From assembly GCA_902810735.1 (NCBI GenBank), contig CADDYX010000001.1:1-53976 (forward strand): a stretch of DNA of 53,976 bases. The letters run 5' to 3'. Positions 4,566 through 32,877 of this stretch are shown in pieces (positions within the stretch are counted from its first letter, which is position 1; the number at the start of each line of letters is the position of its first letter). Made by a program: the position numbers and the translations under genes. The stretch comes from Verrucomicrobiota bacterium (GTDB lineage Bacteria > Verrucomicrobiota > Verrucomicrobiia > Chthoniobacterales > UBA10450). The notes beneath the pieces are model-generated. The model saw only the letters and a list, made by a program, of their open reading frames with translations. It did not search any database and had not been told where the DNA came from.

Positions 4566-6230
4566 TTAGGCGTCGAGCGCCTGGCGGACCTTGGTCGCGA
4601 GCTGCTCCGGATCGAATGGCTTGGGCAGAAAATAAATTTCCTGGTCGCAACCTTGGACGAACTGGAGCGCCTGATCGAGATAGCCTGAGATGAAGATCAC
4701 CTTGGTGTTCGGGCTGGTCCTGGCAAGCCATTTGGCGAAATCGCGACCACTCATCTCCGGCATCATGATGTCGGTCAGCAGAAGATCGACAGGTTTGTCG
4801 CCGCGTTCGCTGATCAGCCGCTGCGCGTCATCCCCTTTTGCGGCCTCGATGACATCGTAGCCGAGCGAACGAAGGACCCGGACGGAGACGTGGCGGACGC
4901 TGACGTCATCTTCGAGGACGAGAATGCTTTCAGTACCGCCGTGGAGGTTTTTCGCCGATGCACGCTTGTACGCTGGCGGCGGCGGCGGCGCGACTTTCGG
5001 CAGGTAAATCGTGACCGTCGTGCCGTGCGTGGCATCGCTGTTCACGTAAAGATCGCCGCCGCTTTGCCGCACAATACCGAAACTTGTTGCGAGGCCGAGA
5101 CCGCTCGCCACCTGCTCGTGCTTCGTCGTGAAGAACGGCTCGAACAAGTGTTCCTTGGCTTCCTCGCTCATGCCGATACCCGTGTCGCCGACGCTGATCG
5201 CGACGTATTCACCGCACGGCAACGGCTCGTACCCCATGCCCGGCATTGTCTCACTCGAGATCTGCGCGACAGACGTCCGCAACGTCAGCTGACCGCCGCG
5301 AGGCATCGCGTCGCGAGCATTTACGGCAAGGTTCAATATCACCTGCCCGAGGTCGTTCGGATCGACCTGGATGTGCGCGCCGTGTCGATGCTGATGCAAT
5401 TCGCACACGATCCGGATGTTTTCGCCAAGCAGACGCAAGAGCGAGCGCTCCAGGTTGGTCACGACCGAGTTAACTTCGACCACGCGTGGCGCAGCCGGAT
5501 GCCTCCGGCTGAATGCGAGCAGCTGGCTGGTCAGGGCCGACGCGCGCCCCGCAGCGTTGCGGATTTCGCTGACGTGATCGGCGACCGCGCCCCTGAGCTT
5601 CAGCTCGTTCAGGAGCAGATCGCTGTAACCAAGGATTGTCGTTAAAAAATTGTTGAAATCATGCGCCATTCCGCCGGCGAGCTGGCCGAATGCCTCCATC
5701 TTTTGCGCGCGCGACATCTGATCGTGCAGATGCTTGCGCGCAGTGATGTCCATGAGCGACGCGACGAATTGCTCTGCCGCGCCAGTTTGGTCGCGGGTGA
5801 TGGCGGCGCGCTCGAGAATATCGGCGCATGAGCCATCGCTTCGGCGGACGCGGTACTCGCCACTCCAGAGCGCCGCGTCGCCGCTAAGCGCTTCGTGGAT
5901 GCTGCGCGCGACGCGCGACCGATCGTCGGGATGGATCTGCTGCTGCCAGAAGCGGACCGTTGCCGTCGCCGCGTCCGGTTTGTAACCGAGCAATTCTTCC
6001 AGACCCTGTGGCCAGGAAACCTCGCCCGTTTTTACATTCCAAATCCGAATTGCATCATTCGTAGCCCGCGCAAGCAGCGTAGAATATTCTTCGCTTTGAG
6101 CCGGGCGACGCGATGCTGGATGATCTTTGCTTTCATGATTGTGGGGCAGTGGCTTGGTTGAGTTCTCTTTCTCGAGGTGAGGACCGGCGGGTCTTTCGTC
6201 GGTTGCCTGAAAATCGAGTTTTGCGCGCAT
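4566..6230 (-). CDS. PAS-domain hybrid sensor histidine kinase with C-terminal receiver
   Basis: Cytoplasmic-looking hybrid kinase of 554 residues from the ATG at 6230. Order: short variable N-terminus, a PAS domain with PAC motif (about 48-165), a HisKA box with phospho-acceptor His190 in GGMAHDFNNFL, a HATPase domain with N box (NLAVNARDAM), DTGIGM and GLGLATS, a proline-rich linker, then a receiver with phospho-acceptor Asp in LLLTDIMMPEMSG and conserved Lys in LPKPFDP. No membrane segment is seen, so the signal is probably internal. The frame stays open to an ATG at 6359 (597 aa), but those extra residues look non-conserved and would overlap the start of the divergent dehydrogenase, so I prefer 6230. 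Output target unknown. Confidence 0.88.
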   Translation of the reverse strand: MRAKLDFQATDERPAGPHLEKENSTKPLPHNHESKDHPASRRPAQSEEYSTLLARATNDAIRIWNVKTGEVSWPQGLEELLGYKPDAATATVRFWQQQIHPDDRSRVARSIHEALSGDAALWSGEYRVRRSDGSCADILERAAITRDQTGAAEQFVASLMDITARKHLHDQMSRAQKMEAFGQLAGGMAHDFNNFLTTILGYSDLLLNELKLRGAVADHVSEIRNAAGRASALTSQLLAFSRRHPAAPRVVEVNSVVTNLERSLLRLLGENIRIVCELHQHRHGAHIQVDPNDLGQVILNLAVNARDAMPRGGQLTLRTSVAQISSETMPGMGYEPLPCGEYVAISVGDTGIGMSEEAKEHLFEPFFTTKHEQVASGLGLATSFGIVRQSGGDLYVNSDATHGTTVTIYLPKVAPPPPPAYKRASAKNLHGGTESILVLEDDVSVRHVSVRVLRSLGYDVIEAAKGDDAQRLISERGDKPVDLLLTDIMMPEMSGRDFAKWLARTSPNTKVIFISGYLDQALQFVQGCDQEIYFLPKPFDPEQLATKVRQALDA

Positions 6231-6348
6231 CCTCAGGAAGCCGGTTCCCGGCAGGTCCAAGTAGCTAGTTCTATGCCTCTGCTGCCGCGCGCCCTCTGCG
6301 GAATCGGCTTGCCTTTTGCCGCACGCGAAACCAATCGTGCACTCGCTC

Positions 6349-7176
6349 ATGAGCAGCATCGATCGGATTGATCCCGCAAAGCCGCTGAAGAATCAGAAGG
6401 CGCTCGTCACCGGCGCAAACTCGGGAATCGGCGAAGGTTGCGCGATCGCACTCGGTGCGGCGGGTGCCGCTGTCGTAGTCAACTACCGGTCGAATCCGGA
6501 AGAGGCCGAGCGCGTTGTCGGACTGATCAAAGATGCCGGTGGTGAGGCGATCGCGATTCGCGCCGACGTCAGCGATGAAGGCGAAGTCCAGGCGATGTTC
6601 TCGAAGGCGATCGCGACGTTTGGGACTGTCGACATTCTCGTGAACAATGCCGGCCTCCAGCAGGACGCGCCTTTTCAGGAGATGACGCTCAAACAGTGGA
6701 ACACCGTCATCGGCGTCAATCTGACCGGGCAGTTCCTCTGCGCGCGCGAGGCGGTGCGCGAATTTCTGCGTCGCGGCGTTGTCCCGGAAGTGTCGCGCGC
6801 AGCGGGCAAGATCATCTGCATGAGCTCAGTTCACGAAGTGATCCCGTGGGGCGGGCATGTGAATTACGCCGCGTCGAAAGGCGGGATCATGCAGTTGATG
6901 AAGAGCATGGCCCAGGAGCTGGCGCCGCAGAAAATCCGCGTCAACAGCATCGGCCCGGGCGCCATCAAGACGCCGATCAATCGCGCGGCGTGGGAAACGC
7001 CGGAAGCACTCGCTTCGTTGCTGACGCTGATTCCTGACGGTCGTGTCGGCGAGCCGGAGGACATCGCGCGCGCGGCTGTTTGGCTCGCATCGGACGCCTC
7101 AGATTATGTGACGGGGCAGACGCTGTTCGTCGATGGCGGGATGACGCTGTATCCCGGCTTCGCGACCGGCGGGTAG
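6349..7176 (+). CDS. short-chain dehydrogenase/reductase, glucose 1-dehydrogenase-like
   Basis: A 275-residue classical SDR. The Rossmann nucleotide motif TGANSGIG is at 21-28, NNAG marks the core, and the catalytic residues are Ser160, Tyr173 and Lys177 in YAASK. The C-terminal SDYVTGQTLFVDGGM is the usual substrate-loop/dimer region. The overall pattern is closest to the 'glucose 1-dehydrogenase' type, but SDR substrates cannot be deduced from sequence. The ATG at 6349 is preferred over 6316 because the family normally begins shortly before the Rossmann strand. It is divergent from the histidine kinase and about 280 bases upstream of the polysaccharide locus, to which it may or may not belong. 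Confidence 0.9.
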   Translation: MSSIDRIDPAKPLKNQKALVTGANSGIGEGCAIALGAAGAAVVVNYRSNPEEAERVVGLIKDAGGEAIAIRADVSDEGEVQAMFSKAIATFGTVDILVNNAGLQQDAPFQEMTLKQWNTVIGVNLTGQFLCAREAVREFLRRGVVPEVSRAAGKIICMSSVHEVIPWGGHVNYAASKGGIMQLMKSMAQELAPQKIRVNSIGPGAIKTPINRAAWETPEALASLLTLIPDGRVGEPEDIARAAVWLASDASDYVTGQTLFVDGGMTLYPGFATGG

Positions 7177-7457
7177 TAGAGGAACGATTTCGCGCGCGGC
7201 TGAACTGCGCAGAGTCACCGCGGAACTCTCCACGAGGCAAAACGCTGCGGTCGCAGGGCATTTCGGAGGCGATTTCGCTTGCTGCATCCGCCAAGTGTCG
7301 GTAAAAAAGACGCCCAAATCTCTCGTGCTCAACTTTAAACCAACGGATCCGAACAGCGGATGGGGCCGGCTGCGCAGCAGTCGTGTCCTCGCGCCGTCGC
7401 CCGTTCGAGCATTTTTCTGGTACCACATCTGCTAACGATCAACACGGACTGACCTCT
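7177..7457. other. 281-base intergenic region upstream of the polysaccharide locus
   Basis: No credible gene is visible on either strand. Two small inverted repeats are present: ATCCG-aacag-CGGAT (7347-7361) and CTGCG-gt-CGCAG (7245-7256). A run of six A residues lies near 7303. This is the obvious place for the promoter and any regulatory leader of the exopolysaccharide operon, but I could not identify a convincing -35/-10 pair or a known riboswitch fold. Confidence 0.5.
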
Positions 7458-8825
7458 ATGCGCAGTAACTCAACCCTTCACTGCTACGCTGTCTCTGCCC
7501 GGAGGCTTGGCCTCGCTTTGACGCTTTCACTCTGTTGCGCCGCCACGGCGGTGCGCGCGCAGGATGCAGTCCGTCCGTCTCTGGCGGGCGAAGCCGCCTC
7601 CGAAGCGCGACGGCAATCAATCGACCATATCCCGTACAACCTGATGGTTGGCCCGGTTCGGTTGCGCGTCAGCGCGACCGCCGGTTTCGAGTACAACGAC
7701 AACGTCAATCTCGCTTCGGACGAGACGGAGACGTTTCTCACCCCGGGTGGACTCGTCACCCTGAGCACGGACCAGCAGAGCGATTTCATTTTTCGTCCGC
7801 AGGCGAATCTCGACCTGATCTGGCCCATCACGCAGTTGAACACGCTGCGGCTCGATCTCGGTGTCGGCTACGCAGTCTACTTCGATCACCCGGAGTACAA
7901 CACGAACGGCGTCCTCGTTTCGCCGAACTCAGCGCTCTCGTTTGATGTTTTCGTCGGCGACTTCCGGATCAACTTCCACGATCGCTTCTCGCTCGAGCAG
8001 GACCCGGTCGCTGAAATCGGCCTCAGCAACGTGGCTGACTACGGGCGCTTCCAGAACACCGCCGGCGTCTCTGCACTGTGGGATTTGAACCAGGCCGTCG
8101 TCACGCTCGGTTACGACCATTACACCTTCATCTCGACGACCGATGCGTTCGATTACCTGGACCGCAACGCGGAGGAGCTCGCTGCGACCATCTCATTCAC
8201 CCTCACCAACACGACCGGCGTCGGGCTCGAGAGCGCGTTCGTGCACACCTATTACGACGACGATATCCTGAACGACAACGACACCTACAGCATCGGCGCG
8301 TTTTTCGAGACGCAGGTTACGAACTATCTGAAGGTGCGCGTCGCCGGCGGTTACCAGACGATCCAATTCGACAACACCGGGATTGTTAACGACCCGCACG
8401 ACCTCAATGACTACTACGCGAATGCGCTGATCTCCCACCGGATCAACGCGCAGATCACGCAGACGCTCTCAGCCGGTCACGAGAGCCAGCTCGGCGTCAA
8501 CTCGAATTACGTGACGCTGAATTATATTCGTCACACCGCGACCTGGAATATCTTCCTGCACACGCTGCTTTCGACGGAGCTCTTCTATGAAGACGCCGAC
8601 GATTCCGGTGGATTCGGCCAGATTCCGGGAACCACGATCAACTTCTTCAATCCGTTCGTCGCGGAGCACATTCACCGCTACGGCGGCGCATTCACGGTCG
8701 GTTATCAGCTGACGAAGCACGTCACGCTCGGCGTCCGCTATCAGTACACGCAGAAAGATTCCGATCAGCCGCTGCGCGATTATCGGCAGAACCGGATCGG
8801 CATCGACGGCACCTACAGTTTCTAA
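7458..8825 (+). CDS. outer-membrane beta-barrel protein of the polysaccharide locus (putative beta-barrel porin 2 type)
   Basis: A 455-residue protein with an N-terminal signal peptide (hydrophobic LGLALTLSLCCAATAVRA, probable cleavage after ARA/VRA-Q). The rest consists of alternating amphipathic strands rich in Tyr, Asn, Asp and Thr, ending in Phe (GTYSF), the usual recognition signal for beta-barrel assembly. It resembles the BBP2-like barrels found at the head of exopolysaccharide clusters. The ATG at 7458 is chosen because it puts the signal peptide at the N-terminus; the frame extends back to 7383 without coding features. It lies 30 bases upstream of the short Wza-like export protein, so it may supply the outer-membrane pore. 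Family is fairly sure; transport role is inferred from position. Confidence 0.8.
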   Translation: MRSNSTLHCYAVSARRLGLALTLSLCCAATAVRAQDAVRPSLAGEAASEARRQSIDHIPYNLMVGPVRLRVSATAGFEYNDNVNLASDETETFLTPGGLVTLSTDQQSDFIFRPQANLDLIWPITQLNTLRLDLGVGYAVYFDHPEYNTNGVLVSPNSALSFDVFVGDFRINFHDRFSLEQDPVAEIGLSNVADYGRFQNTAGVSALWDLNQAVVTLGYDHYTFISTTDAFDYLDRNAEELAATISFTLTNTTGVGLESAFVHTYYDDDILNDNDTYSIGAFFETQVTNYLKVRVAGGYQTIQFDNTGIVNDPHDLNDYYANALISHRINAQITQTLSAGHESQLGVNSNYVTLNYIRHTATWNIFLHTLLSTELFYEDADDSGGFGQIPGTTINFFNPFVAEHIHRYGGAFTVGYQLTKHVTLGVRYQYTQKDSDQPLRDYRQNRIGIDGTYSF

Positions 8826-8855
8826 ATCGCAAACAGGGATAAACGGGTAATTCAC

Positions 8856-9536
8856 ATGAGACGTTGGTGGTATACAGGCATCGCAATTTTCGCCCTCGGA
8901 ACGAGCATCTCCGGTCGAGCGCAGGATAACGCTTCACCGATGCCATCGATCCCGAAGGCGGCGCCGACCGACCTCCCGACCACGAGCACGGTGATGCTGA
9001 CGAATTCGATGTCGGTGCTCGACGACAAGAAGCGACTCGGCCCGAACGATTACGTCAGCTTCCGCGTGGTTGAGGATCGCGATAATGAATCGCAGCACCT
9101 GCGCGTGAACGACAATGGCGAGCTTGAAGTGCCATATGCCGGGCTTGTTCCCGCGGCCGGCCGCACCTGCAAGGAAGTCGCTTACGCGGTCAAAGCGGCC
9201 CTCGAGCGCGAGTATTACTACCATGCAACTGTCATCATGGCCGTGGATCGCATCAGCGAAAAATCGCGCGGCAAGGTTTACGTGACGGGCAGCGTAAAAG
9301 GACAGGGGCCTCAGGAGATTCCAGCTGACGAGACATACACAGTCAGTAAAGCCATCATCCGCGCCGGCGGCTTTGGCGATTTTGCGGACAAGAAAAAAGT
9401 GAAGCTTACCCGCAAGGACGGGACGAGCTACATCATTGATTTGCGGCGCGTGATCGAGCAGGGACGCACGGAGGAAGACGTTGTGCTCCAGCCGGATGAC
9501 CAGATCAATGTGCCGCAACGGCTGATTAACTGGTAA
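8856..9536 (+). CDS. polysaccharide export protein, short Wza/OPX type
   Basis: 226 residues with a Sec signal peptide (WYTGIAIFALGTSISGRAQ). A polysaccharide-export domain (about 58-135, beginning LGPNDYVSFRV) is followed by a single SLBB-like domain (about 140-215, VYVTGSVKGQGPQEIP). There is no lipobox cysteine and no C-terminal amphipathic helix of the kind that forms the outer-membrane pore in E. coli Wza. The protein is therefore a short, periplasmic OPX form. It sits between the beta-barrel and the Wzc-like co-polymerase, five bases before the latter, which fits a three-part envelope-spanning exporter. Assignment of domain is firm; the exact architecture is inference. Confidence 0.88.
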   Translation: MRRWWYTGIAIFALGTSISGRAQDNASPMPSIPKAAPTDLPTTSTVMLTNSMSVLDDKKRLGPNDYVSFRVVEDRDNESQHLRVNDNGELEVPYAGLVPAAGRTCKEVAYAVKAALEREYYYHATVIMAVDRISEKSRGKVYVTGSVKGQGPQEIPADETYTVSKAIIRAGGFGDFADKKKVKLTRKDGTSYIIDLRRVIEQGRTEEDVVLQPDDQINVPQRLINW

Positions 9537-9541
9537 TTCTC

Positions 9542-11704
9542 ATGCACGCCGCTTCTCCCTCAGATCATCCCGTCTCCGCACCCTGGAGTACGACGTTTGT
9601 CACCCGTCTTCATCGCTACAAGTCGCTGCTCATGCGGCGCTGGTGGATTCCGCTGCTGACAATCTGCCTCGGACTTTTTGTTCAGGCGTGGCTGATTTAT
9701 CAGACGCCTCCGTCGTTCCTCTCGATGAGCAAGATGATGCTCGCGGGCAAGCTCAACATCGGCCAGAACGCAGTCTACAGCGAAGACACGGTCAACTTTT
9801 ACGGCACGCAGATTCAGCTCATGCAGAGCGACGAAGTGCGCCGGAGCGCTGAGGCGCTCGTCCGCGCGACCCATCCCGAAATGCAGCCGGTCAAGGTCGA
9901 CATCTTCGTGGTCCAGAAACCACGCACATCAATTTTCGATCTCTCCGCCATCGGCAGTACGCCTGAGTACACGCAGGCGTATCTGAATGCCGTGATGCAG
10001 AAGTACCTCGATTTCAAAAAGGGGATGCGACAGGAGCAGGGCAGTAACGTCACCACCGCGATCACCGACCAGCTGATCCAGACTGAAAAAGATCTGCGCG
10101 CCGGCGAGGACGAGATGATCGAGTTCCAGAAGCAGAACAACATCGCTTCGATCCAGGAAGAGGGGAACAGCGCGGCGCAGTACCTCGCCAAGCTCAATCG
10201 CGATTACGCCGGGCTCAAAACCGAGTACGAGCTGCTCGACACACTTGATCTCGACCAGAACCTCGACCGCGGCGCGAACCTCTCCGGCGACGCGTCGCCA
10301 GCGGAGAAGGACTCGGCGGCCAACGATCAGCAGGGAATGCCATTCACCGGCGTCGGGCCGGAAGCCGAGTATCTGAAGGCCAAGCAACAGGTGCAGTTGC
10401 TAAAAGCCGAGCGTGAAACGCTCTCGAAAGATCTCCGCCCGAAACACCCGAAAATCATCAAGCTCAACGACGAAATCGTTAAGCAGGAAAAGCTGATCGA
10501 GCTATTCCGCGCTGACGCGATCGAGAAGCTCGAGACGCGCAAGAAATCGATCGGCAAGCAGATGGAAAACCTGAAGGCGAACATCGCCGAATGGGAAAAG
10601 AAAGCGCTGGCCATGAGCGAGCGGCTCGCGCAGTTCAACCGCATCAAAGGCAAGGTCGATCGGCTGAAAACGCTCTACGATCGCCTCACCAACAGCCTCA
10701 AGGATGTGAACGTTTCACAGAGTGTCGACAACGGCGACCAGATCGCGATCATGGAAGCGGCCTCGGCGCCCGTCTCCGTCCGCCCAGGATTGATCAAGAG
10801 CCTCTTGATCGGGCTCGGCTGCGGCGCGCTAGCCGGTATCGCCATCCTCCTGCTACTCGACCGGATCGACGATCGGATGGCGTCGTTCAGCGAATTCCAG
10901 GGCCACTTTACGGAGAACGTGCTTGGCCAGATTCCGAAGGAGAAGACGAAGGGCAAAGTCACGTTGCTGCAGGCGGACGATGCGCGTCACGTTTTCGCCG
11001 AATCATACCGGAACATCCGCTCATCGATCTTCTTCATGCCGTATGACGGACCGCGTCCGAAGACGTTGCTCATTACCAGCTCCGTGCCGAATGAAGGCAA
11101 ATCGACGATCTCGTCGAATCTCGCGATTACGATGGCGCTCTCGGGCGCGCGGACCTTGTTGATCGATGGCGATCTGCGCCGTGGCGCTTTGCGTGAAGCG
11201 TTCGGTGTTTCCTCACGTGTCGGCTTTTCCGAAGTGCTCAAGCAGGAGGTGAACTGGCGGGAAGTGGTCGTGCCAACGCACTATTCAAATCTTTCGCTGC
11301 TTCCGCGCGGCAAAACGCTCGGCCAGCCAAGCGAGCATCTGCTCCGCGACTCGACCGACGCGATCCTGCGCGAGATGTACGCGAACTACGACTACATCCT
11401 GATCGACAGCTCGCCGGTGCTGGCGGCTGACGACACCACAAGCCTCGCGCCGAAAATCGATGCGACTCTGTTCGTCGTTCGGCTTTCCTACACCTCAGCC
11501 CGTCTGACCAGGAAGTCGCTTGAGCTGCTCTACAATCGCCAGGTGAACGTGCCGGGTGTCATTCTGAACTACGTCGACACGTCGTTGCCTGAATACTACT
11601 ACTACCAGTATTCAGAGTACTACAACACGCCGGCGCAGATGGAGCACGACGAGTCATTCGTCGCACCGCACCAGAACCAGCCGAAGCAGGTCAGGTCGTC
11701 GTAG
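9542..11704 (+). CDS. polysaccharide co-polymerase/bacterial tyrosine kinase (Wzc/GumC-like)
   Basis: A 720-residue inner-membrane protein controlling chain length and export. It has a Wzz domain with a first membrane segment at about 35-53, long coiled-coil helices in the periplasmic part (about 170-400), a second membrane segment at about 418-440, and a cytoplasmic BY-kinase. Kinase motifs are Walker A SSVPNEGKST (513-522), Walker A' LLIDGDLRR (around 540-548) and Walker B ILIDSSP (around 620). A C-terminal tyrosine cluster carries seven Tyr at 685-688, 690, 693 and 694, the usual autophosphorylation site governing oligomer cycling. Kinase and co-polymerase are on one chain, as in Proteobacteria rather than split as in Firmicutes. 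Confidence 0.94.
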   Translation: MHAASPSDHPVSAPWSTTFVTRLHRYKSLLMRRWWIPLLTICLGLFVQAWLIYQTPPSFLSMSKMMLAGKLNIGQNAVYSEDTVNFYGTQIQLMQSDEVRRSAEALVRATHPEMQPVKVDIFVVQKPRTSIFDLSAIGSTPEYTQAYLNAVMQKYLDFKKGMRQEQGSNVTTAITDQLIQTEKDLRAGEDEMIEFQKQNNIASIQEEGNSAAQYLAKLNRDYAGLKTEYELLDTLDLDQNLDRGANLSGDASPAEKDSAANDQQGMPFTGVGPEAEYLKAKQQVQLLKAERETLSKDLRPKHPKIIKLNDEIVKQEKLIELFRADAIEKLETRKKSIGKQMENLKANIAEWEKKALAMSERLAQFNRIKGKVDRLKTLYDRLTNSLKDVNVSQSVDNGDQIAIMEAASAPVSVRPGLIKSLLIGLGCGALAGIAILLLLDRIDDRMASFSEFQGHFTENVLGQIPKEKTKGKVTLLQADDARHVFAESYRNIRSSIFFMPYDGPRPKTLLITSSVPNEGKSTISSNLAITMALSGARTLLIDGDLRRGALREAFGVSSRVGFSEVLKQEVNWREVVVPTHYSNLSLLPRGKTLGQPSEHLLRDSTDAILREMYANYDYILIDSSPVLAADDTTSLAPKIDATLFVVRLSYTSARLTRKSLELLYNRQVNVPGVILNYVDTSLPEYYYYQYSEYYNTPAQMEHDESFVAPHQNQPKQVRSS

Positions 11705-11780: not shown

Positions 11781-13100
11781 ATGGGATTTTTCGGCCCGAT
11801 CTCGCCTCCTCTGCTCGATGAAACGACCGCGCCGCTCGTTCGCCGCGCGCTCCAACGCGCGCGCGTCGTTGGCAGCTTCGCCTCGGTTCAGGCGGCCGTG
11901 CAGATTATCAGTTTCGCCAGCGGAATTCTGCTGATTCGCTACCTCGATCAGCGCGAATACGCCTACTTCACGATCGCAAACACGATGCAGGGCACGATCA
12001 ACGTGCTCGCCGACATCGGCATCAGCATCGGGCTAATCTCGATCGGCGGCCGCGTTTGGCAGAACCGGCGCCGCTTCGGCGAGCTGGTGAATACCGCGCT
12101 CGCGATGCGCCGCAGACTCGGTGCCGCCGCCATCGTTCTCGTCACGCCTGTGCTGTACTTTTTGCTCGCGAAGAACGGCGCGTCCGCTGCGTACGCAGGC
12201 GCATTGGTCGGGCTGATTCTTGCCGCGCTCCTTGTGCAGTTCTCAATCGGCGTGCTCGGCGTCGTCCCGCGATTGCGTTCCGATCTTGCCAAGATCCAGC
12301 AGATCGATCTGATCGGCGCGATCGCGCGGCTCGCGGTGCTCGGGGTCTTGATTGTCATTTTCCTGAATGCGAGCGTCGCCGTCGCGGTGGGCTCGCTGAC
12401 CTTGCTGCTGCAATACGTGCTGCTGCGGCGCTACGTGGCTGCGGTTATCGATACGAGCGCGCCCGAAAATGCGGAGGACCGCTCGGCGATGCGGGGCTTC
12501 ATTCGCAACCAGGCGCCGAACGCAATTTTCTTCTGCATTCAGGGGCAGATCACGATCTTCCTGATCAGTTTTTTCGGGCGGCACGTCAGCTCGGTTGCGG
12601 AAGTCGGAGCGCTCGGTCGCCTCGCGATGATCTTTGCTGTCCTGACGAACCTGCTGACAAACGTCTTCGCGCCCGCCTTTGCGCGTTGCCAAAGCCCGCG
12701 GCGCTTGCGTTGGCAGTACGCTGCGATCGTCGGCGGCGTCGCCGCGTTCAGCGCGGTCGTGCTCATATCCGCGGCATTGTTTCCCCGCGAATTCCTGTTC
12801 GTGCTCGGCAACAAGTATGCGCACCTCGAGCGGGAGCTTGTGCTGATGGTCGCCGGCTCGGTACTGGGAGCGCTCGCCAGTGCATTGTGGGCGCTGAACG
12901 CGTCGAAAGCGTGGATCGCCGGATCGTGGTTGTACATTCCACTCACCCTTGCGACGCAGGCGGCGATGATTCCGTTCATCGACTTCTCGACCGTCCGCGG
13001 TGTGCTGATCTTCAACCTCGTGTCAGCGCTGCCGAACCTGCTTCTGAATCTTGCTCTCAGCTACCGCGGATTCCGCCAATTCGGCCGCGCGGCAGCGTAG
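11781..13100 (+). CDS. polysaccharide flippase (Wzx-like, MATE/PST superfamily)
   Basis: A 439-residue, strongly hydrophobic protein with about 12 predicted membrane segments distributed over its whole length, and an N-terminal stretch (AAVQIISFASGILLIRYLD) typical of the first helix of PST-type flippases. Such proteins move undecaprenyl-diphosphate-linked repeat units across the inner membrane. The ATG at 11781 has no strong ribosome-binding site. It stops two bases before the next gene. The position after the Wza/Wzc pair supports the role. Specificity for the lipid-linked oligosaccharide cannot be told from sequence. Confidence 0.85.
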   Translation: MGFFGPISPPLLDETTAPLVRRALQRARVVGSFASVQAAVQIISFASGILLIRYLDQREYAYFTIANTMQGTINVLADIGISIGLISIGGRVWQNRRRFGELVNTALAMRRRLGAAAIVLVTPVLYFLLAKNGASAAYAGALVGLILAALLVQFSIGVLGVVPRLRSDLAKIQQIDLIGAIARLAVLGVLIVIFLNASVAVAVGSLTLLLQYVLLRRYVAAVIDTSAPENAEDRSAMRGFIRNQAPNAIFFCIQGQITIFLISFFGRHVSSVAEVGALGRLAMIFAVLTNLLTNVFAPAFARCQSPRRLRWQYAAIVGGVAAFSAVVLISAALFPREFLFVLGNKYAHLERELVLMVAGSVLGALASALWALNASKAWIAGSWLYIPLTLATQAAMIPFIDFSTVRGVLIFNLVSALPNLLLNLALSYRGFRQFGRAAA

Positions 13101-18826: not shown

Positions 18827-20028
18827 TCCTGATGAGCCATCCGACGGGTAACGCGAACGTGCGTGCGGTAGCCGATGCGCTGCTGCGCCATGGCATGCTT
18901 CTTCGGTTCGCGACATGCATCGGCATCTCGCCGCAGTCGCCGCTGGCGCAAAGATTCCCCCAAAGAATCTTTAATCTTCCGCCAGACAAAATGTGGACGC
19001 ATCCGCAGCGCGAAATTGTGCGACACCTCGCATCGCGATTTGGCGTCCGCGGAATTATCGAGCACGAGCGAGGCTGGGCGTCGATGGACCAGGTTGGGCG
19101 TGACCTGGATCGTTACGTGGCCAAAAAGCTGGAGCAAACGGACGAGAGCAGCCTCACCGGCGTGTATTGTTACGAGGATTTTGCGCTCGCCACGTTTGAG
19201 GCAGCGAAGCGGCGGCAGCTCCGGCGGGTTTACGATTTGCCGATTGCATATTGGGAGGTCTCGCAGCGGCTGTTGCGCGAGCAGGCAGAACGCTGGCCGG
19301 CGTGGGAACCGACGCTTGGCGGGACGCGCGATTCGGCTGAGAAGCTCGAGCGCAAACGGCAGGAACTCGAGCTCAGCGACGTGGTAATAACGCCGAGCAA
19401 GTTCGTTTTCGACACGCTTCCCGCTGCGGTTCGCGAGCGGAAGAAGGTCGTTGTCGCTGAATTCGGCTCACCTGAAGTGAGTTCGTTAACGAGTGTTACG
19501 CGTGCGCCGAGCAGCCGACCGCTGCGGGTACTGTTTGCGGGCGCGATGACGCAGCGCAAAGGTCTCGCCGATGTCTTCGCAGCAATGAAGCTGGTGGATT
19601 CGAAGGCGGTCGAGCTGGTTGTGATAGGATCACCCGTCTCGCCGATCTCGTTTTATCGCGGCGAGCTGGCCGATTTTCGATACGAAGCGCCGCGCGAACA
19701 CCGAGCGATGCTCGAGCTGATGCAGAGCTGCGACGTCCTCGTTTTGCCATCGATCGTGGAAGGCCGCGCACTGGTGCAACAGGAAGCGCTTGCCTGCGGA
19801 CTTCCGCTGATCGTTACCCGCAACGCCGGTGGTGAAGATTTGATCGATGAAGGTGAAACAGGATTCCTTGTTCCGCCAAATTCACCTGAGTCGATTGCAC
19901 AGAAGATCACCTGGTTTGTCGCGCATCGAGGCGAGCTTCCTCGGATGTCTGCGGCCGCGCGCGCGAAGGCGGCCGAGCGAACGTGGCGTGACTACGGTGA
20001 GAAAGTTGTCCATGCAATCGCAGCGTAA
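18823..20028 (+). CDS. glycosyltransferase family 4 protein
   Basis: 401 residues starting at an ATGA overlap with the preceding gene. The N-domain is unusual for GT4: it opens MILMSHPTGNANVRAVADAL. The donor domain is standard, with LFAGAMTQRKGLADVFAAM and the signature PSIVEGRALVQQEALACG, in which the glutamates are correctly spaced (E-x7-E). A GGEDLIDEGETGFLVP segment near the end is also typical. It overlaps the Wzy-like gene by 17 bases. Closest relatives by style are surface-polysaccharide mannosyl/glucosyl-type transferases, but specificity is not deducible. Confidence 0.85.
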   Translation: MILMSHPTGNANVRAVADALLRHGMLLRFATCIGISPQSPLAQRFPQRIFNLPPDKMWTHPQREIVRHLASRFGVRGIIEHERGWASMDQVGRDLDRYVAKKLEQTDESSLTGVYCYEDFALATFEAAKRRQLRRVYDLPIAYWEVSQRLLREQAERWPAWEPTLGGTRDSAEKLERKRQELELSDVVITPSKFVFDTLPAAVRERKKVVVAEFGSPEVSSLTSVTRAPSSRPLRVLFAGAMTQRKGLADVFAAMKLVDSKAVELVVIGSPVSPISFYRGELADFRYEAPREHRAMLELMQSCDVLVLPSIVEGRALVQQEALACGLPLIVTRNAGGEDLIDEGETGFLVPPNSPESIAQKITWFVAHRGELPRMSAAARAKAAERTWRDYGEKVVHAIAA

Positions 20029-21451
20029 CGACAAGGTCATCCGGAACATCAGGCGACTGATCTGGGTGTATTTTTGGCTGCTGATCTTCGAAGGCGCGCT
20101 GCGCAAATGGGTGGTGCCGCGGCTCTCCGATCCGCTCCTCATCATCCGCGACCCGGTGGTGGTCGCGATTTACGTGCTCGCGATCAAGGCGCACATCTGG
20201 CCGAAAAACCGCTTCATCTATGCGCTCGGCGTCATCGCCGGCCTGTCGTGGTTCGTCTCGGTTCTCGTCCTGCAGCAATACTTCCCGATCAAGCCGCTGC
20301 TCTTCGTCACCGCCTATGGGTTCCGATCAAACTTCCTTCATCTGCCGTTAATTTTCGTTATCGCGAAGGTATTCGATCGCGAAGAAGTGAAGCGAATGGG
20401 GTGGTGGTTCCTGCTCGTGCTGATTCCACTCGCCGCGCTCGTCACCGTTCAGTTCAGTGCCTCGCCTGATGCGTTTGTTAATCGGACGGCCGGAACTGGT
20501 GAAGGGCTGCAGATCACCGCCGGTGGCGGAAAGATCCGGCCACCGGGCACTTTCTCGTTCGTCTCCGGAATGATCTTCTACGCCGCAGCATGCGCGGCAT
20601 TTCTGCTTCATGCCGGACTCGTCCGCGGGATTTATCGCAACTGGCTTCTCTACGCTGGCGGCTTTGCCCTTGTGGTGGCGACCGCGGTGTCGGGTAGCCG
20701 TTCGGTGCTGCTGTCAGAGCTTGTCGTCATCTCGATGCTCGTTGTGATCTTTTTCACCCGGCCATCTGCGCTGGGCTCCTTCGGGCGCAATGTTCTGATT
20801 GCCGTCGTCCTGCTGCTGCTCGCCAGCCGCCTGCCTTTCTTCAAGCAGGGCGTTGACATCTTGAGCGATCGTTTCACCGAATCGGCCGAAGCCACGCAGA
20901 CAACTGTCGCGACCAACCTGATTGACCGTGTGATCGAAGGATTCACCGAAGGACTGTCGCACCTGGACCGGATTCCCTGGGCCGGTTACGGACTCGGTCT
21001 CGGAACAAACGCGGCAGCGAAGGTTCTCGTCGGTCGGACGATCTTTCTGCTTTCGGAAGGCGAATGGCCGCGGGTGCTGCTCGAGAGTGGGCCGGTCCTC
21101 GGTCTCGCATTCATCGGGTGGCGCGTCGCGTTTACTGTCTGGCTTGGCTCGGTCTGTTATCGCTCGCTGCGCGGCGGCGAGATTCTTCCCATCATTCTCT
21201 ACGGCTCCTGTTTTCTCACGCTCCTGAACGGCCAGTTCGGTCAGCCGACAAATCTTGGATTTGCTGTCTTGCTCGGTGGTTTGTGCCTTGCCTCGACCGA
21301 GCGGGAATACTACCGCAAACGTCCTGTCGCAGCCGAGGCGCCGCCGCCCCCCGAGCAGTCGCGACGATTGCCGCGGCGTTCGGCTTACGCTGAACGCCTG
21401 CACGACCGGACCTCGGCGAGCGGAGGAGCGAATGGTTCTGTTGATCGGTAA
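20012..21451 (+). CDS. O-antigen/exopolysaccharide polymerase-like membrane protein (Wzy candidate)
   Basis: 479 residues from ATG 20012, which overlaps the previous gene by 17 bases. About 10-12 membrane segments are apparent. A large non-membrane loop around residues 280-350 contains RIPWAGYGLGLGTNA and GEWPRVLLESGPVLGLAF, the pattern seen in Wzy/WaaL-type polymerases, where conserved Arg and Gly residues of a periplasmic loop are functional. It would join repeat units on the periplasmic side. The C-terminal ~50 residues are Pro/Arg/Ser-rich and cytoplasmic-looking. A second O-antigen-ligase-like gene at the end of the locus makes the division of labour uncertain. Confidence 0.75.
   Translation: MQSQRNDKVIRNIRRLIWVYFWLLIFEGALRKWVVPRLSDPLLIIRDPVVVAIYVLAIKAHIWPKNRFIYALGVIAGLSWFVSVLVLQQYFPIKPLLFVTAYGFRSNFLHLPLIFVIAKVFDREEVKRMGWWFLLVLIPLAALVTVQFSASPDAFVNRTAGTGEGLQITAGGGKIRPPGTFSFVSGMIFYAAACAAFLLHAGLVRGIYRNWLLYAGGFALVVATAVSGSRSVLLSELVVISMLVVIFFTRPSALGSFGRNVLIAVVLLLLASRLPFFKQGVDILSDRFTESAEATQTTVATNLIDRVIEGFTEGLSHLDRIPWAGYGLGLGTNAAAKVLVGRTIFLLSEGEWPRVLLESGPVLGLAFIGWRVAFTVWLGSVCYRSLRGGEILPIILYGSCFLTLLNGQFGQPTNLGFAVLLGGLCLASTEREYYRKRPVAAEAPPPPEQSRRLPRRSAYAERLHDRTSASGGANGSVDR
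21422..21428 (+). promoter_or_regulatory. strong Shine-Dalgarno site of the glycosyltransferase at 21432
   Basis: GGAGGAG ends three bases before the ATG at 21432 and fixes that start, although the frame is open back to 21255. Most starts in this locus rely on stop/start overlaps instead and lack such a site. Confidence 0.6.
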
Positions 21452-27738: not shown

Positions 27739-28962
27739 ATGCGGGTTGTCGTGTGGGGCATCAATTACGCGCCGGAGTTTACCGGGATCGCGCCGCACAC
27801 CGTCGCCTTGTGCGAATTTTTGCGGGCGCGCGGCGACCACGTCGAGATGGTGACGTCGTTTGCCTATTATCCGACGTGGCAAAAACGCGCTGAGGATCGC
27901 GGGCAGCTCTATCGGCGCGACGAGATAAACGGCGTCCGCGTCCATCGCTGCTGGCATTACGTGCCGGCACGCGTCTCAGCGATCAAGCGCATTCTGCACG
28001 AAGGCAGTTTCGTCACGACGTCATTGCTGCGCGTGCTCTCGTTGACGCGACCTGACGTGTTTGTCGTCGTCTCGCCGCCGCTGCTGCTCGGCGCCGCTGC
28101 GTGGCTGGCGGGTATGATCAAACGCGCACGGTACGTTTTCCACGTGCAGGACATGCAGCCGGACGCGGCCGTCGGCCTCGGCATGCTGCGGGCCGGCTGG
28201 TTCACTCGTGCGCTCTATGCGCTCGAAGCCTTGGCATATCGTCACGCGGCACGCGTGTCGGGAATTACGCGCGGGATGCTGGAGACGTTTCGCAACAAAG
28301 GCGTGCCTGAGTCGAAGCTGATCTACTTCCCGAATGCGATCGCACTGCAAGACGAAACGCAACGGCCGCGTGGCCGATTTCGTGAGAAACACGGCTTCGC
28401 GGGGGATGACTTTCTTGCCGTCTACGCGGGCAATCTCGGCGTTAAACAAGGGCTCGATATTTTGCTCGATGCGGCGCGGCTCTTAACGAATCCGCGGATC
28501 CGCATCGTCATCTGTGGCGATGGCGCGCAGCGCGATGCGCTCGCGCAACGGATCGGCGAGCTGCAGTTGCCGAACGTGCGGATGCTTCCGCTCCAAGCGG
28601 GCGAAAACTATTCAGCGCTGCTCGTGGATGCGGACCTCTGCTTCATCACGCAACAGGCAGGCTCGGGGACTTTATTCTTCCCGAGCAAGCTGCTGGGGCT
28701 GCTGGCGTTTTCGAAACCGGTCGTGACCGTCGCGTCGGCGCAAGGCGAGCTCGCGTTGTCCGTCAGCGAAGGAGGATTCGGCGTAAACGTGGAGCCAGGG
28801 CACCCGGCGGAGCTCGCGAAATTGTTGGACGACCTCGCTGCCGACCCGGAGCGGCTGCGGCGCTTCGGCACGGCTGGGCGCGCTTACGTTCAGCAGTTCG
28901 AGAAGTCGAACGTCTTCAGCGCGTTCGCCCGCGAGCTCGACGCAGTCGTAGCGCCGGGCTAG
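27739..28962 (+). CDS. WcaI-like glycosyltransferase (GT4 family)
   Basis: 407 residues. The start VVVWGINYAPEFTGIAPHT and the segment FVVVSPPLLLGAAAWLAG are hallmarks of WcaI-type colanic acid glycosyltransferases, with VYAGNLGVKQGLDILLDAA in the donor domain. The usual E-x7-E signature is replaced by TLFFPSKLLGLLAFSKP, as is common in this subfamily. It is the last gene of the plus-strand run. Its TAG stop shares CTAG with the stop of the convergent sugar transferase. Probably adds fucose or glucose-like sugar early in assembly, by analogy only. Confidence 0.88.
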   Translation: MRVVVWGINYAPEFTGIAPHTVALCEFLRARGDHVEMVTSFAYYPTWQKRAEDRGQLYRRDEINGVRVHRCWHYVPARVSAIKRILHEGSFVTTSLLRVLSLTRPDVFVVVSPPLLLGAAAWLAGMIKRARYVFHVQDMQPDAAVGLGMLRAGWFTRALYALEALAYRHAARVSGITRGMLETFRNKGVPESKLIYFPNAIALQDETQRPRGRFREKHGFAGDDFLAVYAGNLGVKQGLDILLDAARLLTNPRIRIVICGDGAQRDALAQRIGELQLPNVRMLPLQAGENYSALLVDADLCFITQQAGSGTLFFPSKLLGLLAFSKPVVTVASAQGELALSVSEGGFGVNVEPGHPAELAKLLDDLAADPERLRRFGTAGRAYVQQFEKSNVFSAFARELDAVVAPG

Positions 28963-30362
28963 TACGCCGTTCGCGGCGGCATCAGCAGGTGAAAGAAGGT
29001 GCGGATAATGATGCCGCACTCGAGCGACAGGTTCCAGTTCTCGAGATATTCGATATCGCACTCGACGCGGTGCGCGATGTCAGATTGCGATCGCGCTTCG
29101 CCTCGAAATCCGCGCACCTGCGCGAGCCCGGTAATGCCCGGTTTCACAAATGCGCGGACGTGGTAGTTCTCCATCACCGCGGAAAACTGCTGGTTATGCT
29201 CGATCAGGTGCGGGCGCGGACCGACGATGCTCATGTCGCCGAGCAGCACGTTCCAGAACTGCGGCACTTCATCGATGCTCAGCTTCCGGAACCACTTGCC
29301 GAGTGGGTAGACGCGATCATCTCCTTCGCGCGCTTGTCGCGTGAGCTCGCCGTTCACGTGCATCGTTCGAAATTTGTAGATCTTGAACTGCCGGTTCTGC
29401 ATGCCCGCTCGGGTCTGGATGTGAAACAACGGGCCGCGCGATTGAAAGCGTTGTGCGATCCACACGATGACCGTCAGCACCGGGAACACGACTAACATCA
29501 CCGGCAGTGCGAGCACGAGATCGATGACCCGCTTGCAGCAGCGGTTAAACGGATTCTCGAGCGGCTCTTCGCGCAGACCGATAAAGCGGAAACCGTCGTC
29601 CTCGAAGTGCGTGACGGGATGGCGAAGACGCTCCTCAAGATCGCTGAGAATCAACAGGCGCACCCCGAGGCGGTCGCAAACGCTGATGACGTGGCGGTTC
29701 CGCTCGTTGAAGAGCGGAAATTCCAGCAGAATGATCTGCGTAATGCCGCGCTCGCGGATGACTTTCTCGACGTCCTCAGGCGTTCCGAGCACCGGAATGC
29801 CGTCTTCGGTTTGTTGGATCGGTTCGTCGCAAATCAAGCCGGTGGTGTGCAGGCCCATTTCGGATTTCCGGCGCAACCAGCTGCGCAGCGCGGCGGCTTT
29901 TTCCGTTGTGCCGACGAGCAACGTCTTCTGTTTGTGAACGCCGGTGAACATGCCGCGCGCGAGAAACGACGGCAGGTAGTGGTGCGAAAACAGCAGCGCC
30001 ACATAGAGCCACGGCACGAAGTTGAAGAAGAAAACACGCGAGATGAAGGAGTCCTTCATCGCGATCAGGTAAAACACGAGCGCGCCGACACTGGCCAGTG
30101 TCTGCCGCAAGGCTAGCCGGTGTTGCCGCAACAACTCGTTCTGGAGGAAGTAATTTTTTGAACCATCGCGACTCAGCGATTCCAGCGTCATGCCGAGCAC
30201 GAGCAGCCCGCAATAAATCGCGTACTTGCGCCAGGTGAGCACCGCGCCCGGCGAATAGAATGTGACCATCACCCAGACACCGAGCCAGAAGAGCAGCGCC
30301 ACCATCACGATCTGGCAGAGCAGGAACAGGCGGTAGAGCCCTTCCGTCCGTTGTGTCACCAT
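28959..30362 (-). CDS. polyprenyl-phosphate sugar-phosphate transferase (WcaJ/undecaprenyl-phosphate glucose phosphotransferase-like)
   Basis: 467 residues. The N-terminal half has four membrane segments and a nucleotide-binding-like domain (around 125-250, LLVGTTEKAAALRSWL) of the CoA_binding_3 type. A fifth hydrophobic segment (KRVIDLVLALPVMLVVFPVL) precedes the bacterial sugar-transferase domain: FHIQTRAGMQNRQFKIYKFRTM, then KWFRKLSIDEVPQFWNVLLGDMSIVGPRP. These are the catalytic and phosphate-binding motifs of polyisoprenyl-phosphate hexose-1-phosphate transferases. It would transfer the first sugar phosphate to undecaprenyl phosphate, priming assembly. It is convergent with the WcaI-like gene and divergent from the following ligase-like gene. 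Confidence 0.93.
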   Translation of the reverse strand: MVTQRTEGLYRLFLLCQIVMVALLFWLGVWVMVTFYSPGAVLTWRKYAIYCGLLVLGMTLESLSRDGSKNYFLQNELLRQHRLALRQTLASVGALVFYLIAMKDSFISRVFFFNFVPWLYVALLFSHHYLPSFLARGMFTGVHKQKTLLVGTTEKAAALRSWLRRKSEMGLHTTGLICDEPIQQTEDGIPVLGTPEDVEKVIRERGITQIILLEFPLFNERNRHVISVCDRLGVRLLILSDLEERLRHPVTHFEDDGFRFIGLREEPLENPFNRCCKRVIDLVLALPVMLVVFPVLTVIVWIAQRFQSRGPLFHIQTRAGMQNRQFKIYKFRTMHVNGELTRQAREGDDRVYPLGKWFRKLSIDEVPQFWNVLLGDMSIVGPRPHLIEHNQQFSAVMENYHVRAFVKPGITGLAQVRGFRGEARSQSDIAHRVECDIEYLENWNLSLECGIIIRTFFHLLMPPRTAY

Positions 30363-30510: not shown

Positions 30511-32877
30511 ATGGAAAAACCGGCCACTCGACCGACTCGGGAGCGCAGAAATGGTGCTCCGTCCAAACGCTGGAGCAACACTGTTGCGGCGGCTTTGCCG
30601 GTCATCGCCTGCGTCTTGGGCGGCGCCACCGAGAAATGGGCGGAAGGCATCGTGCTCGTCTTGCTCGGGTTGCTCGTTCTTGCCGATCCGCCACGCTTCT
30701 CGCCCGGCCGGGTCATCAACGGAGCGGCGATCGGGCTGCTCGTTTGCGCCGGATTGGCGTTCCTGCCATCGAATTGGTTTTTCCAGCCAGAATGGCGCTC
30801 AGTGCTGGCGGACGATTTCGGTCTGGCGTTGCCCAACACCGTCTCCGCTCAACCGTGGGCGACGCTGCAATGCACGATCAGCCTCGTCGCGGGCCTGACG
30901 TGGTTCTATTACGTCTGCTGCCGCGACGCCGAACCGCGCGAGATGCGATACGGCATTCGCCTGTATGCGGCGGGGATCGTTCTGCTCGCCGCGCTGTGTC
31001 TGGCGCTGCACTTCGCGCATGCGATGCCGCCGTTCTGGCACAACGAGCGGAGGTTCGGACCGTTTCCAAATCGCAACCAGACGGCTGATCTCTTCGCGCT
31101 GGCGGCGGTGGTGGTGCTCGCGTGCGGCGCCGATGACCTGCGCAATCGCAATTATCGCTGGATCGCGTGGGCGGTCTCGTTCGTTGTGCTCGTCGGTGCG
31201 CTTGCGCTCGGATTCTCCCGCGCCGGAATCCTGCTGCTGATCCTCGGTGTCGCGGTCTGGATCGCGGTTGTGACATTGCGAAAAGGTTCGGCCGCGCGGC
31301 TTGCGTTCGGCATTTCGATCCTGCTCGTCCTGCTGGCTGCGCTCCTGTTGTTCGGCGGCCAGACGCTCGAGCGCTTTCACCTCCGCGGGGACGGCGCGGG
31401 AATGTCGAGCGACTTTCGGTGGCTGATCTTTCGCGATGCCTTGCAGCTGATTCGCGCCTCGCCCTGGAGCGGCGTGGGGCTGGGAAACTTCGAACCCATA
31501 TTCGCGATCTTCCGCAGCGCATCGCGCGTCGACACGCGATCGCATCATCCGGAGAGCGATTGGATTTGGCTCTGGAGCGAACTCGGCTGGATCGCTTTAA
31601 CGCTGACGATTGTCGCCGCTTTGTTGCTGTTGTGGAGAGCGTTTCCGCGTGATGAAAGCCGTAACTATCGGCTGCGACTCGGCGGTTTCGTCGCGGCGGC
31701 GCTCTTCGCGATTCATGGCTTGTTCGATGTGTCTGGGCATCGCGTCGGAACGGCGATGGGAGCTGTTTTCCTGCTCGGTGCGGCGCTGCCGCGGGATGCT
31801 GAGGCTCGCACCAAATGGCTGCCGTTCCTCTTTCGATTTGTGGCCGTTGCCTTGATCGTATGCGGCGCCGCGTGGACAGCGTCGGTCCGTTGGCAGCGTC
31901 CGTTACCCGGCTCGCTCGGCGCGGAAATGCTCCGCGATTCGGCAGCGAGTGCGAATCGCAGCCGCAATTACGCCGAAGCGACGACACAGGCGACAACGGC
32001 GCTGGCGTGGACGCCGCTGGATTGGCAGCTCTACTTTGTGCGCGCTCTGGCGGAAGCGAATCAGCGCGACAGGCGCCACGCGCTGGATGATTTCCGCCGC
32101 GCGCGCTTTCTGGAGCCGAACGCGTACGAAGTTCCGCTCGAGGAGGGGATCGTCTGGTCGACAATTGATGCGCGACTTGCGCTGCCAGCCTGGCGAGAAG
32201 CGCTGGAGCGTGCCGGCTCAGAGCGCGCCGAGGCTTATGCTCGAATGCTGCGGCAAGCAGACCAGTTCAATCCGCGCCTGCTTCCCCGCCTGCACGAACT
32301 AAGCATGGCGCACTCAGACCTCGTGCTGACGTATCTCTCGCGGTTGCATGGCGATCCCTTCAACGCCGCCATCGCCGAGCTGCTCGCAAAGGATCCCGAG
32401 CTGGCAAAGCTGAGCGACACACAACGCGCGCAGCTTCTCGAGATGTGGTCCGAACGCGGCGATCTGGCGCAGCTTGCGCAACTCATCCAGCGGCACCCTG
32501 ACTGGCTCCCTGCCGCATCCAGCGGCGTTGAGAAGTTTCGTGCCGAGCAGCGGGATTTTCGCGGCGCGGTCGAGCTCGCGTTGCGCTTCGGCGTGCGGCC
32601 TGCGCTGCCGCAAATCACGACCGATCGCCCGCCCACCGAGCTTCAGCAGACGCTTGCAATTGATCCCGCAAACTATGCCGTCGGATTTGCACTCTATCGT
32701 CAGCAACGGCAACACGGTCAGCTGGACGATGCGCTGCTGACGGTGCGGCATTTCACCGAATCGAAGCGCGCGCCGGCCTACTTCTACTACCTCGAAGCCG
32801 ACTGCTGGGCTGCGAAAGGCGAATGGGAGCGGGCGTGGGCGGCGTATCAGAAGTTCGCGGCTGCGACTCGCAAGTAG
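30511..32877 (+). CDS. O-antigen ligase/polymerase-like membrane protein with C-terminal TPR-like domain
   Basis: 788 residues. The first ~460 hold about 12 membrane segments and a Wzy_C/WaaL domain: FRWLIFRDALQLIRASPWSG, VGLGNFEPIFAIF and SHHPESDWIWLWSELGW, with the conserved His of the periplasmic loop. The last ~320 residues are soluble and helical with TPR-like periodicity (YAEATTQATTALAWTP, ALDDFRRARFLEPNAYEVP, and later repeats), presumably periplasmic. Such ligase-TPR fusions occur in several phyla. It may act as the polymerase or ligase of this locus, or glycosylate proteins. It is divergent from the priming transferase and ends four bases before the ppdK stop region. Confidence 0.82.
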   Translation: MEKPATRPTRERRNGAPSKRWSNTVAAALPVIACVLGGATEKWAEGIVLVLLGLLVLADPPRFSPGRVINGAAIGLLVCAGLAFLPSNWFFQPEWRSVLADDFGLALPNTVSAQPWATLQCTISLVAGLTWFYYVCCRDAEPREMRYGIRLYAAGIVLLAALCLALHFAHAMPPFWHNERRFGPFPNRNQTADLFALAAVVVLACGADDLRNRNYRWIAWAVSFVVLVGALALGFSRAGILLLILGVAVWIAVVTLRKGSAARLAFGISILLVLLAALLLFGGQTLERFHLRGDGAGMSSDFRWLIFRDALQLIRASPWSGVGLGNFEPIFAIFRSASRVDTRSHHPESDWIWLWSELGWIALTLTIVAALLLLWRAFPRDESRNYRLRLGGFVAAALFAIHGLFDVSGHRVGTAMGAVFLLGAALPRDAEARTKWLPFLFRFVAVALIVCGAAWTASVRWQRPLPGSLGAEMLRDSAASANRSRNYAEATTQATTALAWTPLDWQLYFVRALAEANQRDRRHALDDFRRARFLEPNAYEVPLEEGIVWSTIDARLALPAWREALERAGSERAEAYARMLRQADQFNPRLLPRLHELSMAHSDLVLTYLSRLHGDPFNAAIAELLAKDPELAKLSDTQRAQLLEMWSERGDLAQLAQLIQRHPDWLPAASSGVEKFRAEQRDFRGAVELALRFGVRPALPQITTDRPPTELQQTLAIDPANYAVGFALYRQQRQHGQLDDALLTVRHFTESKRAPAYFYYLEADCWAAKGEWERAWAAYQKFAAATRK

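Follow-up and report, generated by a model that had tools for sequence, protein, structure and literature searches.

The first 53,976 nucleotides of contig CADDYX010000001.1 from a Verrucomicrobiota bacterium (Chthoniobacterales, UBA10450), referred to here as the window, contain three adjacent genes that encode an outer-membrane β-barrel, a short outer-membrane polysaccharide export (OPX) protein, and a Wzc-like polysaccharide co-polymerase with a fused tyrosine autokinase. We consider it highly probable that these genes specify a composite (split) exporter for a Wzx/Wzy-type exopolysaccharide, which would be assembled from an OPX ring, the barrel as pore, and the co-polymerase below and would carry polymer out through the barrel. 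The triad is most likely a conserved Verrucomicrobiota version of the design known from Myxococcus. An earlier note on this DNA, written from the sequence, had proposed this split design for the locus; gene order, domain content, and barrel fold support the proposal, in which the assembly is a prediction. The gene order is conserved among relatives, the OPX protein has no sequence for a C-terminal helix, the protein encoded upstream is predicted to fold as a barrel, and the co-polymerase falls into the tyrosine kinase family.

Three adjacent genes and their products

The three genes lie on the plus strand, 30 bases (barrel to OPX) and 5 bases (OPX to co-polymerase) apart, at the coordinates that the earlier note had assigned to them, as an open reading frame (ORF) check established.

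7458..8825, plus strand: outer-membrane β-barrel protein, 455 amino acids (aa); ORF from ATG with signal peptide, tail, 18-strand barrel, and C-terminal Phe (an alternative longer GTG start is possible at 7383)
7560..7640, plus strand: tail preceding the first strand of the barrel protein, residues ~35 to 61; delimited by conservation, motif, and model; possible docking or plug element
8856..9536, plus strand: short OPX protein (D1+D2 type), 226 aa; PF02563, SLBB, and SLBB_2; no lipobox seen and no C-terminal helix apparent
9542..11704, plus strand: Wzc-like polysaccharide co-polymerase with fused tyrosine autokinase, 720 aa; TIGR01007, Wzc 9i2q, hydropathy, AlphaFold2 (AF2), and Foldseek

Comparisons drew on two sets of loci. 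The first comprises the window and 19 relatives' loci (20 fetched in total; 15 from the 24 genomes of the same family and 4 from the same order), which were the best-scoring ones and not a random draw. The second comprises 80 loci from genomes that carry a name, which is Verrucomicrobial in 74 cases; a few genomes supply two loci. The two sets very probably share about 17 contigs, which agree in length, and their adjacency counts overlap. From the 80 loci we measured 70 barrels (at least 350 aa), 78 OPX proteins (at least 190 aa; two incomplete frames were dropped), and 67 co-polymerases (at least 640 aa), with the relatives' start codons picked by script. Alignments A1 and A2 used 14 and 18 of the 20 sequences available from the window and the 19 loci, and alignments A3, A4, and A5 used 63 of 71 barrels, 57 of 68 co-polymerases, and 59 of 79 OPX proteins, leaving out near-duplicates, incomplete sequences, and those with an uncertain start.

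A Pfam protein scan assigned the OPX protein to PF02563 (Poly_export; E value = 7.5e-12, 45.7 bits against a cutoff of 28) and found an SLBB domain, with SLBB_2 (1.2e-10) and SLBB (8.3e-09) matching the same stretch; up to an E value of 0.1, Poly_export and SLBB models were the only matches, with neither Wza_C nor GfcC among them. A profile of 14 family members matched the solved chains 9n9a (3.8e-16), Wza 2j58 (4.7e-16), 7xfd (1.3e-14), and PslD 9v6l (5e-14). The match to Wza stops at position 220 of 225 in the profile and position 231 of 359 in the Wza chain, so that nothing in the OPX protein corresponds to the rest of Wza with its pore helix; only about 6 residues of the OPX protein follow the matched second domain. 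The relatives are built alike: among 78 OPX proteins, the stretch beyond the last strand motif of the final domain is 7 residues long in 72, 8 in four, and 9 in one, and the motif is absent in one. The N terminus was judged by eye to be a type I signal peptide, and a loose lipobox pattern matched 5 of the 78 proteins, in each case within what we read by eye as the hydrophobic core of the signal peptide. A hydropathy scan flagged no segment in the OPX protein, but it left the signal peptide unflagged as well and therefore carries no evidential weight. The description in the earlier note of a 226-residue, Wza-like protein that is not a lipoprotein and lacks the C-terminal pore helix of Wza thus appears to be accurate, as far as sequence can tell.

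The AF2 model of the barrel (63 alignment rows; mean pLDDT, 88.1; pTM, 0.81) has 18 strands of at least 8 residues beyond residue 66 and, in addition, a small hairpin at residues 89 to 104. VIA-align placed AlgE at the top with twelve entries (Z scores of 21.4 to 20.5, root mean square deviations of 4.5 to 4.7 Å, 311 to 326 residues aligned), tied or nearly tied with a BenF-like porin (Z = 20.4) and Occ porins (Z of about 19 to 20). Foldseek was led by Occ porins and a Campylobacter porin, with AlgE at rank 13 and the polysaccharide barrel PgaA (4y25) at rank 48 (2.4e-07). The barrel-family profile matched solved sequences weakly (best match BamA, E value = 0.0075), and the evidence for the fold therefore comes from the model. 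In sequence, the window barrel matches PF10082 (BBP2_2) at 5.3e-06 in the Pfam protein scan (26 bits, cutoff 23.7), as do 52 of 63 family members at 0.01 or better, and 56 and 25 of the 63 match TIGR03016 and EpsL, respectively, at 0.001 or better. Among the 70 relatives whose barrel frame is nearly complete, the C-terminal residue is Phe in 62, Tyr in 1, and another residue in 7. The earlier note had described a barrel ending in Phe directly upstream of the OPX gene and had named the lack of a barrel fold as a finding that would count against its proposal; the C-terminal Phe is present, and a barrel with 18 long strands was modeled with confidence, its best solved matches being AlgE and other porins.

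A fold as close, or nearly as close, to general porins as to AlgE would also suit an accessory outer-membrane protein, such as a Wzi-like surface lectin or a nutrient porin, with the OPX protein making its own pore or using another. Wzi is likewise an 18-stranded barrel, and homologues of it occur in the vicinity of every class of OPX gene (PMC9603273, section 9). The roughly 6 residues beyond the second OPX domain speak against a pore of its own, the barrel adjoins the OPX gene in almost all loci whose flanks are intact, and the second OPX gene of the host genome likewise has barrel-like sequence upstream (both described below). We therefore regard an accessory role for the barrel as quite improbable and favor the barrel as the export pore.

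The co-polymerase matches the autokinase model TIGR01007 over 9542 to 11701 at 1.1e-37 (129.6 bits, above the curated cutoff of 108.05), the solved Wzc 9i2q at 1.6e-31, and the chain-length model TIGR03007 at 8.0e-12, and Foldseek of its model also finds Wzc. A hydropathy scan indicates two transmembrane segments (residues 34 to 52 and 421 to 439). Motifs that we take to be of the Walker type and a tyrosine-rich tail are visible in the sequence, and P516, G519, K520, D542, and D544 are invariant across 57 aligned co-polymerases. The AF2 model (pLDDT, 81.7; pTM, 0.54) has periplasmic helices at residues 141 to 198, 201 to 234, 273 to 297, and 303 to 392, the longest of which (58 and 90 residues) would span about 87 and 135 Å if straight. 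Short OPX proteins have been argued to be partnered by co-polymerases that reach far into the periplasm (PMC9601211, section 10); with the domain packing of the model uncertain, we take the long helices as consistent with such a reach and no more.

Conservation of the triad and a second OPX locus

Co-occurrence, which the earlier note had suggested as a check, bears out the pairing: a barrel gene is adjacent to the OPX gene in all 19 relatives' loci and was detected in 76 of the 80 named-genome loci. The co-polymerase gene is adjacent in 18 of the 19, the exception being a contig end, and was detected in 77 of the 80. In the loci without a barrel (L102, L106, L107, and L110) or without a co-polymerase (L043, L045, and L111), the contig stops there. 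The gap between barrel and OPX genes, measured in 69 loci, is at most 121 nucleotides (nt) in 63, 179 to 385 nt in five, and 1859 nt in one (L082). An OPX match was found in 33 of 39 genomes (the host genome and 38 relatives), and the titles of the 20 best-listed OPX relatives all name Verrucomicrobia/Verrucomicrobiota, Spartobacteria, or Chthoniobacterales. Of 288 genomes in the phylum, 45 were matched by the barrel profile and 214 by the OPX profile; 17 genomes had a strong barrel match (E < 1e-40), and 16 of these have an OPX match alongside, among the matches listed.

The host genome, a draft with 96% completeness, has two OPX genes according to a whole-genome PF02563 search. The second (genome G000, contig C254, locus L023; 3118 bases) encodes a 250-aa protein with a co-polymerase downstream, and the sequence upstream holds the C-terminal 74 residues of another protein, with Phe at the end and a barrel-profile match of 5e-4. 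This second OPX protein matches the models EpsE (1.4e-24), EpsY (3.7e-23), and TIGR03027 (1.1e-21), all under their cutoffs, and it outscores the window OPX protein on the EpsE and EpsY models. Among 16 loci of this OPX type, its own included, there is a barrel-profile match in 9, an upstream frame whose end in Phe looks strand-like by eye in 5 more, and neither in 2. Both OPX systems of the host genome thus appear to follow the split design. A direct protein scan found no Wza_C in the second OPX protein up to an E value of 1, and a whole-genome search for Wza_C (PF18412) was negative in all 39 genomes, the host included, with a positive Escherichia coli control. The same whole-genome mode found no PF10082 in the host genome, although the protein scan detects it in the window barrel, which makes the genome-wide Wza_C negative weaker than the direct scans. 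A full-length Wza elsewhere, which the earlier note had listed as evidence that would speak against a split exporter, did not turn up in the draft: neither OPX protein gave a Wza_C match in the direct scans.

Three further observations concern the extent of the family. One OPX frame (L093, 5812 to 8256) has 815 aa instead of the usual ~226, perhaps with repeated SLBB domains, and still lies behind a barrel. Four OPX proteins that are 45 to 77% identical to that of the window and accompanied by barrel and co-polymerase (L058, L069, L074, and L083) come from metagenome-assembled genomes labeled Acidobacteriaceae, Terriglobia, Proteobacteria, and Nitrospiraceae, which would reflect either mislabeled or misbinned contigs or gene transfer. 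Five loci of family f40 (L129, L130, L133, L135, and L136) have neither a barrel-profile nor a co-polymerase-profile match within ~1.5 kb of the OPX gene.

Surrounding cluster and proposed export route

The genes downstream of the triad include glycosyltransferases, a weak hexapeptide match, and an FkbM methyltransferase in addition to the following.

11781..13100, plus strand: candidate Wzx-type flippase; 10 hydrophobic segments in a hydropathy scan
19847..21451, plus strand: candidate Wzy polymerase; PF04932 (Wzy_C) at 4.9e-04, 20.4 bits, under the cutoff of 31.7; 6 hydrophobic segments in a crude scan
28959..30362, minus strand: initiating phosphoglycosyl transferase (PGT); PF02397 (Bac_transf) at 1.4e-57
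at 30511: second, stronger Wzy_C protein; Wzy_C at 9.7e-17

The flippase candidate, glycosyltransferases, Wzy_C proteins, and PGT together fit Wzx/Wzy-type synthesis. Among the eight larger relative loci, four (L024, L025, L030, and L031) retain a histidine kinase and the first downstream glycosyltransferase genes; the flippase candidate follows the co-polymerase in three loci, all among these four. The remaining four have the triad in common and, beyond it, no more than some glycosyltransferase or Wzy/PGT matches. Upstream of the triad, a divergently transcribed hybrid histidine kinase (4566 to 6359, minus strand), found in four of the eight larger loci, may regulate the cluster, and an SDR-like frame (6316 to 7176, plus strand) recurs in two of the eight.

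In the proposed route, polymer made by the downstream glycosyltransferase cluster would meet the tyrosine kinase co-polymerase in the inner membrane, whose long helices would extend into the periplasm. The short OPX protein would form a two-layer periplasmic ring atop the co-polymerase and, because it has no membrane-spanning helix, the polymer would leave through the adjoining 18-strand barrel docked on this ring.

The N-terminal tail of the barrel offers one conceivable way of holding the ring. Across 31 diverse sequences, mean conservation is 0.56 for residues 35 to 47, 0.47 for residues 35 to 61, and 0.40 for the whole protein; a motif of approximately Q-[D/E]-x-x-R-x-S-L-A-G is present in 58 of 70 relatives, and the AF2 model places a helix at residues 45 to 56 with low to middling confidence. 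The OPX ring of this clade, which would lack a lipid anchor, might thus be held at the outer membrane by the tail (motif plus short helix), which would dock on the ring or plug the pore until polymer arrives. We had initially rated this idea as unlikely and now rate it somewhat lower still, because the window of residues 35 to 47 ranks only 35th of 443 (i.e., the tail is not the most conserved stretch), because 12 of the 70 relatives, including Chthoniobacter flavus, lack the motif, and because nonlipidated proteins are common among Class 3 OPX proteins, of which ~30% are given as Sec/SPI and almost 50% as lipoproteins, making a missing lipid anchor no rarity (PMC9603273).

Several observations weigh against the composite exporter as we propose it. 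The complex is put together from genes and single-protein models, with the OPX protein represented by its sequence. AlgE leads the BenF-like and Occ porins, which are not known for polymer export, by only ~1 to 2 Z units, Foldseek favors Occ porins, and a porin-type fold is no proof of export. EpsY, the Myxococcus OPX protein, is a predicted lipoprotein (PMC9601211), whereas the window OPX protein has no visible lipobox. The flippase remains a candidate chosen by hydropathy; it has no informative Pfam or NCBIfam match, and Pfam was equally uninformative on three relatives. Many of the loci are closely related, and the adjacency counts are not independent events. The triad is not present throughout: among the same-family genomes, 9 of 24 (drafts, 76 to 96% complete) have no close OPX orthologue (no match or a weaker one), and genome G268 has a strong barrel match with no adjacent OPX gene among the matches listed. 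Finally, 29 further OPX loci of the phylum, again the best-scoring ones, include 22 with an upstream barrel-profile match and 7 without, 5 of the latter in family f40, which indicates that short OPX proteins are widespread in the phylum and may also have partners outside this barrel family.

Comparison with known systems

The best named models of the triad raise the question of whether it belongs to an exosortase/PEP-CTERM surface system in which polymer export would be secondary. The OPX protein scores best among NCBIfam models with TIGR03027 (XrtA/PEP-CTERM export; 9.8e-21), followed by the Wza-type NF011658 (4.1e-15) and, ranked lower, the Myxococcus-type EpsY model NF041843 (1.6e-10; 40.6 bits against a curated cutoff of 320). 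The parts associated with XrtA/XrtB (TIGR03027 for the OPX protein, TIGR03016 and TIGR03014 for the barrel, TIGR03018 for the kinase, and TIGR03007 for chain length) all match the triad. Exosortase (PF09721) occurs in 32 of the 39 genomes, the host included, and lies near the triad in 11 of the 80 loci, at 1.5 to 1.6 kb upstream of the barrel in L032, L033, L039, L046, L052, and L064 and at ~0.5 kb in L083. PEP-CTERM was originally recognized in Verrucomicrobium spinosum, where it has 65 instances, and is associated with exopolysaccharide genes (PMC1569441). However, the XrtA/XrtB scores are all below cutoff, and those of TIGR03027 (74.2 against 180 bits), TIGR03016 (22.1 against 90.85), and TIGR03014 (23.5 against 275) miss the curated cutoffs by so far that we rejected membership in the XrtA system. 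Kinase and chain-length parts are fused in the window protein, no exosortase was detected in the window or its contig (the host matches are on contigs C5 and C176 only), and the co-polymerase and glycosyltransferases indicate polymer synthesis. A PEP-CTERM system with export as a secondary role is therefore highly unlikely, and in any case PEP-CTERM association and composite export are compatible with each other.

Compared with E. coli Wza-Wzc, the triad has a homologous OPX protein and kinase co-polymerase, but the part after the second OPX domain, including the pore helix, is missing and a separate barrel is present. With Class 3 OPX proteins and the Wzp porin, named in PMC9603273, the triad shares the Poly_export-SLBB architecture without Wza_C or GfcC (by Pfam here and by fold recognition there) and the neighboring barrel gene. 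BBP2_2/TIGR03016-type barrels are not among the barrel templates given in section 9 of that survey.

The triad fits the composite translocon of short OPX protein and β-barrel (EpsY/EpsX) defined in 2022, in which the two proteins bind and stabilize one another, with barrel-coupled OPX proteins of ≤280 aa reported in 10 phyla (PMC9601211). That survey looked for OPX proteins of ≤280 aa that lack a C-terminal helix (D4), with a barrel of at least 16 strands and a polysaccharide gene from a Pfam list within five genes. The window OPX protein has 226 aa and, like 77 of 78 relatives, no such helix by sequence (S4pred was the predictor in the survey), and the adjacent gene encodes a barrel with 18 long strands (by AF2; the survey used predictors of its own). 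Regarding the polysaccharide gene, the adjoining co-polymerase is recognized by NCBIfam and Protein Data Bank matches; PF02706 and PF01943 were not matched at 9542 to 11701 or 11781 to 13097, and the Wzy_C candidate at 19847 scores under the cutoff and lies beyond five genes.

The string "Verrucomicro" is absent from the main texts of PMC9601211 and PMC9603273; the legend of figure 4 in PMC9601211 names the PVC superphylum, and its data set may already include a Verrucomicrobiota case. A literature search pairing OPX protein with Verrucomicrobi found nothing. In Akkermansia, a wza transposon mutant has no capsule (PMC13343947), in an article whose main text does not use the word "barrel."

EpsY/EpsX and the triad share a short two-domain OPX protein without a pore helix, an adjacent 18-strand barrel, a Wzx/Wzy-type cluster, and a co-polymerase with long helices (PMC9601211), and AlgE is also the closest structural homologue given there for EpsX. 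The window barrel differs in lying in the BBP2_2/TIGR03016/EpsL neighborhood, as judged by model matches, and in the partly conserved tail before strand 1. Co-polymerase and kinase form one polypeptide in the window. Overall, Myxococcus already provides the precedent for this design, and what is new here is a Verrucomicrobiota triad that differs in barrel family and, relative to EpsY, in its anchor. Many Verrucomicrobiota would thus maintain the Myxococcus-type split exporter as a standing triad of tightly linked genes, whose barrel family lies outside the templates of one founding survey (those of the other may or may not reach it), and the homologues of the triad provide a set for probing how a short OPX ring attaches to a barrel without an apparent lipid anchor.

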